Origin: a virus
Virus record (IMG/VR): IMGVR_UViG_3300046812_000821
Coordinates: 1 to 21,834 of that record
Strand: one strand, 5' to 3'
DNA: 21,834 nt
Of this stretch, positions 14,683 through 17,656 are shown piece after piece. The notes under the pieces are model-generated. The model did no database searches. It saw nothing but the letters and a program-made list of their open reading frames with translations, and was not told the origin of the DNA. The number at the start of each line of letters is the position of its first letter. The stretch's first letter is position 1. The position numbers were made by a program, and so were the translations under genes.

Positions 14683-14774
14683 ACTAAGGACGCAAATGAC
14701 CGCAAAGAAGATTGGATTGTAAAAACCTAGCCAACCTTTGCGACCCTTGGCGCCCTTTGCGGTTAAATCTTCTT
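14683..14774. repeat. Dispersed CGCAAAGG-type inverted repeat pair
   Basis: GACCGCAAAG occurs at 14699-14708 and, inverted, CCTTTGCGACCCTTGG and CCCTTTGCGGTT at 14735-14764. The flanks AAGAAGATT (14705-14713) and AATCTTCTT (14766-14774) are perfectly complementary over 9 bp. The element fills the gap between the chaperone and tail-tube remnant and reaches the remnant's stop codon. It is a common style of intergenic dispersed repeat. Confidence 0.6.
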
Positions 14775-14977
14775 ACTCGCTCGAATACATATCGATGACC
14801 TGGCCCGCCGCATTGGCAAAGGCCTCAAAGTCAAACTCAGGAATGATGAAGTCTTCCTGCTTGGTGGCAAACGTTAGCTTCGATGCGACCACGGAATACA
14901 ACAGCACGTTGAATTGGTTGCCGTTGTAAACGTTTTCCAGCAGCACCTGGATCGTCGGCGCAAAGCCCATGAGCTGG
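14773..14977 (-). pseudogene. C-terminal fragment, probably of the major tail tube protein
   Basis: The frame encodes about 65 residues from MGFAPTIQVLLENV to VIDMYSSE, containing NGNQFNVLLYSVVASKLTF and EDFIIPEFDFEAFANAAGQV. It lies directly upstream of the tail chaperone, the place of the major tail tube gene, and looks like the beta-rich end of such a protein. It is far too short to be complete and has no ribosome site at the internal ATG (14970). It is joined, in a different frame, to a portal-like N-terminus. The family assignment rests on position more than on motifs. Confidence 0.5.
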
Positions 14978-15202
14978 CATCTGGTCAAAAGAGATGGGCT
15001 CCATGTTGCGCGGCTGGATGTTGATGTTGTAGCCGACTGGATAATCGAGCGTCCGCGGCGGAGTGCCTGCGGGAGCGCTGGGCGACATGGGAAGGTCAGG
15101 ACCAAACCACACGTCGAGCGTGTTGCGCAGCTTGCGGCCGACGCGATCTACAAAGCCAGTTTCGAGAGCAGTAAGTTTTCCGCCATTGAGTGTTTCAGAC
15201 AT
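14978..15202 (-). pseudogene. N-terminal fragment of a phage portal protein
   Basis: About 75 residues starting MSETLNGGKLTALETGF and containing DVWFGPDLPMSP, TLDYPVGYNINIQPR and EPISFDQM. From memory, portal proteins of many siphophages start with a similar WFGP then FDYPxGxNxxxxPR then EPISFxQLRALADxYDLL block. Here the match stops exactly after SFDQM, at about 14978, and the open frame then runs on into unrelated residues (PAHGLCADD) to a stop at 14837. The portal ring, the gateway for DNA into the head, therefore cannot be made from this gene. The ATG at 15202 overlaps the end of the preceding 55-aa gene region within 5 nt. Confidence 0.55.
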
Positions 15203-16503: not shown

Positions 16504-16758
16504 TTACATTCTCCGCAAAGACTCGATCCCAATCGGCATGTCAGTCTCAAAGGGCGAGAATGCCGACGAAATGGCATGCGCGACGATGCGACGGCGGCGC
16601 TTCTTCTTCATGACGGGAAAAGGATAGAGCGCGCAGTAGCAGTCGACGCAGAGCGAACGCGAGAGCTCCGATGAGGAGCGGCGGTCATCAGAGTTGAGGG
16701 GCGCGTTACATTCTTCACAGCGCGGCGGACCGACGCGTCCGTTATGATCGTGTGCCAT
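16504..16758 (-). CDS. Small CXXC zinc-finger-like protein, 84 aa
   Basis: The ATG at 16758 has GAGGTG about 8 nt upstream. Two CXXC pairs (CEEC at 16-19 and CVDC about 24 residues later, in LCVDCYCALYP) form a likely zinc site, followed by a strongly basic stretch (KKKRRRR) suited to nucleic-acid binding. The rest is unassigned. It is the first minus-strand gene after the divergent promoter region, with a leader of about 350 nt. It could be a small regulator like DksA/TraR-type or zinc-ribbon phage proteins, but the fit is not specific. Confidence 0.55.
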   Translation of the reverse strand: MAHDHNGRVGPPRCEECNAPLNSDDRRSSSELSRSLCVDCYCALYPFPVMKKKRRRRIVAHAISSAFSPFETDMPIGIESLRRM

Positions 16759-16883
16759 GGGAAACACCTCGACGCCGGACAGAGGCCAGCGCGAGTAGAG
16801 CGGCCTGAGACGGCAGATTGTTTTGCTGGGATAGCTAAGGGTTGAACAGGTATTTATTTACAGCCTGGTTTTTGACGGTTTTT

Positions 16884-17011
16884 GGGAACCTATCATTCTG
16901 CGATGGAGTAAGAACCTGCAGAGGTCCTTTTGCTCTGCTCCTGATGTGAGCGCGCATTCCTGCGAAAGCAGACGAATGACGGCACATCAAAAAGCCCAGA
17001 ATGAGGTTCCC
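16884..17011. ncRNA. Candidate structured RNA or folded mobile element with a three-way junction
   Basis: Outer stem: GGGAACC, a UA bulge and TCATTCTG (16884-16900) pair with CAGAATGAGGTTCCC (16997-17011), 15 perfect pairs. Inside are hairpin GCAGAG/CTCTGC (about 16919-16939) and a third arm TGATGTG/CACATCA (about 16942-16948 with 16983-16989) topped by CATTC/GAATG and CTGC-GAAA-GCAG. The GAAA tetraloop favours the plus strand; the upstream promoter at 17118-17147 would instead transcribe the minus strand as the leader of the operon starting at 16758. No reading frame fills it. It matches no family I can name; a dispersed palindromic element is the alternative. Confidence 0.55.
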
Positions 17012-17065
17012 GCAGCAGACGCAAACGGTACGCCGGCCTTGGAAAGGTTGCAGGCCGTTGGATTA

Positions 17066-17113
17066 AGCCGGCGCCGCTCCCGGCTATGCAGAACCAACTT
17101 CAGCCCTGCATAG
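17066..17113. promoter_or_regulatory. Nested inverted repeats at the predicted minus-strand transcription start
   Basis: AGCCGG (17066-17071) pairs with CCGGCT (17080-17085), and CTATGCAG (17084-17091) pairs with CTGCATAG (17106-17113). The second repeat overlaps the predicted start of the minus-strand transcript (near 17111). It may be an operator or the first hairpin of the leader RNA. Confidence 0.4.
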
Positions 17114-17117
17114 ACAT

Positions 17118-17147
17118 CTTATACGACAACTCTGTTTCGGAAGTCAA
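17118..17147 (-). promoter_or_regulatory. Predicted sigma-70-type promoter, leftward
   Basis: On the minus strand TTGACT (17147-17142) and TATAAG (17123-17118) are 18 nt apart, each five of six consensus bases. It would drive the operon starting at 16758 with a leader of about 350 nt that contains the structured element at 16884-17011. Confidence 0.55.
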
Positions 17148-17210: not shown

Positions 17211-17245
17211 TTGACAATTATTTAGACACTGCTTAGACTTTAGAC
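17211..17245 (+). promoter_or_regulatory. Predicted rightward promoter with three TTAGAC repeats
   Basis: TTGACA (17211-17216) is followed after 17 nt by TAGACT (17234-17239), a good -35 and a modest -10. The start of transcription would be about 6 nt before the ATG at 17252, giving an almost leaderless message; no ribosome site is seen. TTAGAC occurs at 17222, 17233 and 17240, overlapping the promoter, and may be a repressor site. Confidence 0.5.
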
Positions 17246-17251
17246 ACACTT

Positions 17252-17656
17252 ATGGCGCGCGAAACATACAAGCAAGCTTACGCGGCAGCGAAACTCGATC
17301 TGCTAGAGCACCTGCAAAAACGAGACGCCCTGGACCAGAAGGTCCGCAAGCTGAAACAGACAGTCAAGGCGCTGGGCGAGCTATGCGGCGCTGCCCCGGA
17401 GGAGATTGACAAGCTGCTCCTGGTGGAGGGCTTTGCCATTGACGCCAAGCCGGGATTCACTGACGCTATCCGGCGGTTGTTCCGCATCCACCAGACTGCG
17501 CTAAGTCCAACCGATATCCGCGACGATCTAATGAAGATGGGAATCGGTGAGGGCCAGGTAAATCTTTTGTCGTCGATTCATACCGTTTTGCGACGCATGG
17601 CAGAAGCCGGCGAAATTGAAAAGACAGAAGATGCCAGGTTTCGGTTGCCGGGGTGA
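17252..17656 (+). CDS. Coiled-coil plus winged-helix protein, possible regulator
   Basis: A 134-aa protein. Residues 1-50 are a charged heptad-like helix (KLDLLEHLQKRDALDQKVRK, LKQTVKALGEL), a probable dimerisation coiled coil. Residues about 68-132 (GFTDAIRRLFRIHQ, LSPTDIRDDLMKMGI, LLSSIHTVLRRMAEAGEIEK, RFRLPG) form a winged helix with a wing ending in FRL, of a type seen in HARE-HTH and similar DNA-binding domains. It starts right at a predicted promoter and is divergent from the minus-strand operon, which fits a self-controlling regulator of this switch-like region. The role is inferred; the fold is a reasonable reading of the sequence. Confidence 0.65.
   Translation: MARETYKQAYAAAKLDLLEHLQKRDALDQKVRKLKQTVKALGELCGAAPEEIDKLLLVEGFAIDAKPGFTDAIRRLFRIHQTALSPTDIRDDLMKMGIGEGQVNLLSSIHTVLRRMAEAGEIEKTEDARFRLPG

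Follow-up and report, generated by a model that had tools for sequence, protein, structure and literature searches.

A conserved leader RNA heading the head-and-tail operon of Acidobacteria phages, and its candidate role in processive antitermination

The leftward head-and-tail operon of a family of soil phages infecting Acidobacteria appears to be headed by a conserved structured RNA: its structure, its minus-strand orientation and its leader position are well supported by sequence comparison, and in function it is probably a cis-acting processive-antitermination element, like the put RNA of phage HK022 in its mode of action. The window, by which is meant the whole stretch of 21,834 nucleotides analysed, is a 21.8-kb linear viral record (IMG/VR IMGVR_UViG_3300046812_000821) that encodes TerL, the tape measure and tail genes. 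Searches of IMG/VR by pattern and by protein yielded over 20 related contigs from soil phages, a scan of GTDB genomes added two Terriglobia MAGs carrying homologues of the RNA, and two divergent members, reached through the neighbouring genes g17 and g15, were added to the alignment. Covariance-model (CM) matches to the whole leader RNA score 67-279 bits in 25 phages and prophages. One Terriglobia MAG has a 57-kb contig with YebC, cytochrome c peroxidase and PPIase genes on its left and phage on its right, and since chromosomal genes there adjoin the phage it is a prophage of Terriglobia.

The window has a peculiarity of its own near position 14975, between the ORFs 14837-15202 and 14773-15105, where the N-terminal part of the portal gene and the C-terminal part of the major tail gene are fused. 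Missing there is ~6 kb that is present in relatives covering the region, i.e., the rest of the portal, the protease, capsid, adaptor and neck genes and the terminators T1-T3 described below, so that the window is either a deleted phage or a misassembly.

Strand, fold and extent of the RNA

An earlier note had drawn attention to positions 16884-17011 as a perfectly paired three-way junction. The shape was confirmed, with outer stem, short arm and long arm all present, and the segment folds at -54.3 kcal/mol on the plus strand and -55.3 on the minus strand (z -5.4 and -5.5, none of 200 shuffles being as stable), but the pairing is not perfect, the arms being bulged. The outer stem exists, though rather than the 15 continuous base pairs ascribed to it there are 7 + 8 bp split by a 2-nt bulge. 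Nearly every homologue keeps its inner 8 bp, and most of these pairs are invariant. Its outer 7 bp, GGGAACC/GGTTCCC, are invariant among close relatives and absent from the most divergent ones, in which the 5′ GGGAACC segment pairs upstream instead; lacking covariation and missing in divergent members, these 7 bp were rejected as a conserved pairing.

On which strand is such a structure read? The GAAA loop capping the long arm had led to the guess of the plus strand. That loop is indeed in the window but is peculiar to it, most homologues having loops of UNCG/YNMG type on the minus strand (CUUCGG, CCUCGG). In the 25-sequence alignment the minus reading pairs 91.3% of cells and includes 222 G-U, against 79.4% and 17 for the plus reading (a first alignment gave 207 G-U against 27), and the RNAalifold consensus is -56.0 kcal/mol for minus and -23.1 for plus. 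The G-U counts and RNAalifold rule out a plus-strand RNA, and the asymmetry of the former, together with the minus-strand promoter described below, means that the guess from the loop was wrong.

The 128-nt junction is in fact the 3′ half of an RNA of ~245 nt (window 17116-16874, minus strand), the element continuing to 17116 with a 5′ hairpin and its most conserved stretch. Conservation spans from 16874 to a promoter near 17147 and peaks at 17084-17046, outside the segment that was first noted. The order from 5′ to 3′ is P1, P2 with its loop GAGCGGCG, the tail AACGGCCUGCAACC, P3/P3b, P4 with its arms P5 and P6, and 3′ GGUUCCCAAAAACCGUC, placed as follows.

16874-17116, minus: the whole conserved structured leader RNA, supported by CM matches and covariation; its start is that of the aligned region, and the transcript probably begins at ~17111
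17085-17112, minus: P1, the 5′ hairpin, arms 17112-17103 and 17094-17085; 99% of cells paired
17067-17084, minus: P2, the core hairpin GCCGG-GAGCGGCG-CCGGC; loop kept, stem varying
17046-17059, minus: the core tail AACGGCCUGCAACC, near-invariant in the alignments; the host copy described below reads AAAGGCCUGCAACC
17007-17045, minus: P3 (arms 17045-17041 and 17011-17007) with its inner hairpin P3b; covariation
16884-17011, minus: the three-way junction, with P4 as its base, P5 as the long arm and P6 as the short arm; fold z-scores and covariation

In the covariance-model alignment of 25 sequences, double compensatory changes affect 33 of the 71 pairs, with 87 double-changed cells (26.8 in shuffled and 23-34 in slid controls) and a covariation score of 0.267 (at most 0.081 in controls). 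Being fitted to the structure, that alignment leans towards it; a MAFFT alignment of 23 sequences, whose count does not, has 23 pairs of a 75-pair structure changing on both sides. Four pairs of P1 change on both sides, as do three of the five pairs of P3 and two of the eight of P3b. P1 also has many G-U pairs that are possible on the minus strand alone, and the sequence of P3/P3b is replaced in three relatives (L044, L154 and L156) with its pairing retained. The P2 stem can likewise be replaced with the loop kept (GCGGG/CCCGU in L156, GCCAG/CTGGC in the second copy in L045), its closing pair being A-U, U-A or C-G. Sequence conservation is highest in the unpaired parts, the P2 loop and AACGGCCUGCAACC, and the core as a whole is ~60 nt with two hairpins, the second bearing the loop GAGCGGCG. 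Two further pairings were rejected. One is a pseudoknot between GCGG in the P2 loop and CUGC in the tail; it fits 23 sequences with hardly any variation, and it breaks down in L154 and in the L046 second copy. The other, a long-range GGGA/UCCC closure proposed by RNAalifold, fails in L043 and L154.

Could the inverted repeats merely look like RNA and instead serve as a packaging site, a replication origin or an attachment site in the DNA? Their intergenic location near the TerL gene of a phage would suit this, but the confinement of G-U to one strand (222 vs 17), the double compensatory changes and the conserved promoter point to RNA and largely refute the idea, which is hardly credible. The suggestion that this is a folded dispersed element also fell: the record contains a single copy, each relative carries one or two in fixed positions, and compensatory changes occur throughout.

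Promoter, operon head and terminators

Among the possibilities first raised was that the leftward operon has a cis-regulatory RNA in its leader, and this holds up, the minus-strand promoter being conserved and the synteny fixed. The features of the operon, with the divergent gene beside it, are these.

17142-17147, minus: -35 box TTGACT; TTGAC[T/A] in 21/21 loci tested, the sequence of the spacer varying
17118-17123, minus: -10 box TATAAG after an 18-bp spacer; TATAAG or TATACA in 21/21 loci
16504-16767, minus: g16, the first gene of the operon, for an 87-aa small zinc-finger-like protein; the RNA's immediate downstream neighbour in all relatives that have the region
17252-17656, plus: g17, a divergent 134-aa gene, beside the RNA in relatives and not found in the RNA-less L209 and L211
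12432-12451, minus: T4, intrinsic terminator, GAGCAGCCTGCGGGCTGCTT and a T-run, preceding the tape measure; in the same place in L005, L010, L156 and others

Across loci the promoter, of sigma70 type, is TTGAC[T/A]-N17/18-TATA just upstream of the RNA, with the predicted transcript start at ~17111-17112 (minus), and in all 21 promoter loci (21/21) the core starts 30-33 nt past the -10. The RNA heads the same leftward head-and-tail operon in every relative with the region, its order being g16, g15, portal, protease, capsid, adaptor, neck, major tail, tape measure and further tail genes. Between RNA and first gene lies a spacer of 71-252 nt, variable in length and sequence, and no terminator was found behind the RNA. 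Neither the g17 protein nor the other neighbours tested matched a named regulator family in PHROGs or Pfam.

Some smaller observations belong here. The promoter of g17, TTGACA-N17-TAGACT (window 17211-17250, plus), has a predicted start that leaves almost no leader, and three operator-like TTAGAC repeats (17222, 17233 and 17240) overlap it. Just 5′ of the Shine-Dalgarno (SD) of the 87-aa gene, relatives (e.g., L006, L015, L044 and L047) have a hairpin of the type CCGG-uCUGCGu-CCGG, possibly a separate translation-control element, and in L010, L012, L013 and others the spacer between the RNA and g16 has runs of the heptamer-like repeat TTGGTAC/TTGGTAT.

A leader with a complex junction fold invites the thought of sensing, i.e., of a riboswitch or a protein-binding RNA, perhaps for the g16 (87-aa zinc-finger) or g17 product, that controls translation of the first gene or attenuation locally, and the choice of GGGAACC between upstream pairing (P3) and GGTTCCC is switch-like. 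However, the outer 7 bp of that alternative pairing are not kept in divergent members, the spacer to the first gene is as variable as stated, and no expression platform (a terminator or a sequestered SD) is apparent in it; such a sensing leader we consider quite improbable.

Further down, intrinsic terminators are predicted on the operon strand at fixed junctions: T1 between portal and protease, T2 between capsid and adaptor, T3 between major tail and chaperone, and T4 before the tape measure. Their stems show compensatory changes among phages and they often abut the next ribosome-binding site. Among 19 RNA-bearing loci T1 is present in 18/19 and T2 in 15/19, and where the T3 junction is reached or kept, most loci have T3 as well. 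T1 directly adjoins the Shine-Dalgarno of the protease gene, which leaves no promoter between them, so the protease gene can be transcribed only by way of T1. Strong terminator-like sites (dG <= -14) in RNA-bearing operons number 30 on the operon strand; the opposite strand has 19, and a reversed-sequence control has 8. Two relatives, L209 and L211, retain the order TerL-g15-portal-...-tail without the RNA, g17 or T1-T3; in them TerL runs on to g15, and L209 retains one terminator further down. In two distant contigs that do not reach the operon head (L210 and L212) no convincing terminators were found at those junctions. A single evolutionary change may lie behind the RNA-less relatives, in which case the association of RNA with terminators amounts to one event.

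Terminators of partial strength behind the capsid and tail genes might do no more than adjust dosage. If they are dosage devices, the RNA might be a stabiliser or 5′ protective structure for a long late transcript, and the stable hairpin P1 right at the predicted start, and the high and stable expression that late genes require, would accord with that. Yet conservation of the unpaired P2 loop and AACGGCCUGCAACC exceeds what stability alone needs, and the relatives without the RNA are without T1-T3 too, which makes a mere stabiliser very improbable.

Further copies of the core, and known systems

The core of P1, P2 and tail is repeated ahead of g20, a gene of the TerL operon upstream of TerL, in two phages (L045 and L046), and such a copy in the g20 leader was found in L045 and in the Terriglobia prophage. 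By blastn there are copies at two places in one Terriglobia MAG and at one in the other, and a further weak CM match is a host leader. This host copy of the core is on a bacterial contig of a Terriglobia MAG, next to trigger factor-clpP-clpX, and the order there is promoter-like boxes, core, ~270 nt, a clean terminator GCCATCCCCACGGATGGCTTTTTT, SD and an HNH_repeat gene. At L088 14060-15200 (G001 contig C10) the chromosomal HNH_repeat gene was seen to have a ~300-nt leader, with the core near the promoter and the terminator before the SD. Both the g20-leader copies and the host copy are without the three-way-junction half, which counts against the antitermination reading set out below. In ~400 genomes of the class no other convincing chromosomal copy was found, which leaves the host copy as an isolated instance. 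Matches to the pattern and to R2 turned up in other Terriglobia genomes and were discarded, those inspected lacking the full core and some being plainly coding. A chance pattern match (L051) inside a coding region was discarded too.

These copies bear on whether the RNA could be a stand-alone trans-acting one (a sponge, a 6S-like polymerase decoy, or a packaging RNA like the pRNA of phi29) that shares the operon promoter and is cut from the transcript. The very high conservation of the ~245-nt fold, its two well-marked ends and gene-like placement, and the variable 71-252 nt gap to the first gene would favour it, as would the three-way junction, pRNA having one also. However, no terminator lies behind the ~245-nt RNA, a trans-acting RNA would not need a fixed place at the operon head, and the core without the junction is an internal leader of g20 (L045, L046) and a host leader, which fits action in cis. 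A trans-acting RNA is accordingly unlikely. With pRNA, the Acidobacteria phage RNA has in common that it is a phage RNA with a three-way junction; its leader position differs, and its G-U covariation is in a different architecture.

The suspicion that the element matches no known class was borne out: no Rfam 15 family scores above the gathering threshold in the window, relaxing to E up to 5 gave only two spurious eukaryotic matches over the RNA stretch, and a search of six related loci gave none at the position of the RNA. Two of the phage contigs do carry a known orphan RNA, Acido-Lenti-1 (RF01687), matched at L043 5687-5732 (minus) and L042 8442-8487 (plus), which implies that it travels on phages.

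Few systems are known to use RNA antitermination that is independent of factors. Foremost among them is HK022 put, where the RNA alone binds polymerase. The likeness to put includes a cis RNA early in a phage transcript, a two-stem-loop core of ~60-70 nt, a duplicate at the head of another transcription unit in some phages, and terminators spread over >10 kb downstream. In HK022 the putRNAs are ~70 nt with two stem-loops, one just past its promoter and the other ~270 nt down, and they give factor-independent processive antitermination at terminators at least 10 kb away (PMC9378689). In the Acidobacteria phages P1 (10 bp) and P2 (5-6 bp) are directly adjacent and within ~50 nt of the predicted start, with T1-T4, as computed, at conserved junctions downstream in the same unit. 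Homology with put is another matter and was rejected, there being no detectable similarity in sequence or by CM: with filters off, the R2 CM against HK022 18000-40751 gave at best 9.3 bits (E 0.63), and no match at 28057-28422, the nun-cI interval where putL is expected. In addition, the phage leader would act on a late virion operon and put acts on early ones, the leader is much longer with an extra three-way-junction domain of ~130 nt, and the hosts are Acidobacteria rather than Enterobacteria.

Similar RNAs are canT of Tn916, EAR of Bacillus eps operons and conAn2 of pLS20 (PMC11658703). These too are cis RNAs of considerable length and complexity, and the proposal is that they render polymerase resistant to terminators along extended operons of mobile elements or biofilm genes, but they are Firmicute elements, and the phage leader matches no Rfam family. 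Lambda Q and N resemble the proposed system in that late (Q) or early (N) phage operons are transcribed past terminators. Q and N need a phage protein, with the signal in DNA (qut) or in boxA/boxB RNA. In the Acidobacteria phages, by contrast, a large conserved RNA dominates, with the g17 product (134 aa) a possible protein partner.

Processive antitermination as the proposed function

With the RNA at +1, its near-invariant core, terminators that abut genes and are absent from the RNA-less relatives, and extra copies of the core before other genes, cis antitermination fits best; we infer from this pattern that the RNA is active, that its target is polymerase and that it works in cis. Once transcribed the leader would fold, the P1-P2 core first and then P3 and the three-way junction, and would stay on the elongating polymerase, which, so modified and terminator-resistant, would pass T1, T2, T3 and T4 over >10 kb. 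The g17 product and a host factor may modulate this, and in some phages the second core before a gene of the TerL operon would act likewise. In the prophage state the terminators would protect the virion genes from being read by stray transcription of the host.

More broadly, we lean towards seeing here a previously undescribed family of cis RNAs that reprogramme RNA polymerase in temperate Acidobacteriota phages, driving the late virion operon, unrelated in sequence to put and EAR and presumably to canT, and once adopted as the leader of a chromosomal gene. If that is true, an unrelated, highly conserved RNA in the phages of so little-studied a phylum would mean that the antitermination trick arose more than once, and there would be to hand a portable, directly testable element with a defined core, the hairpin loop GAGCGGCG and AACGGCCUGCAACC.
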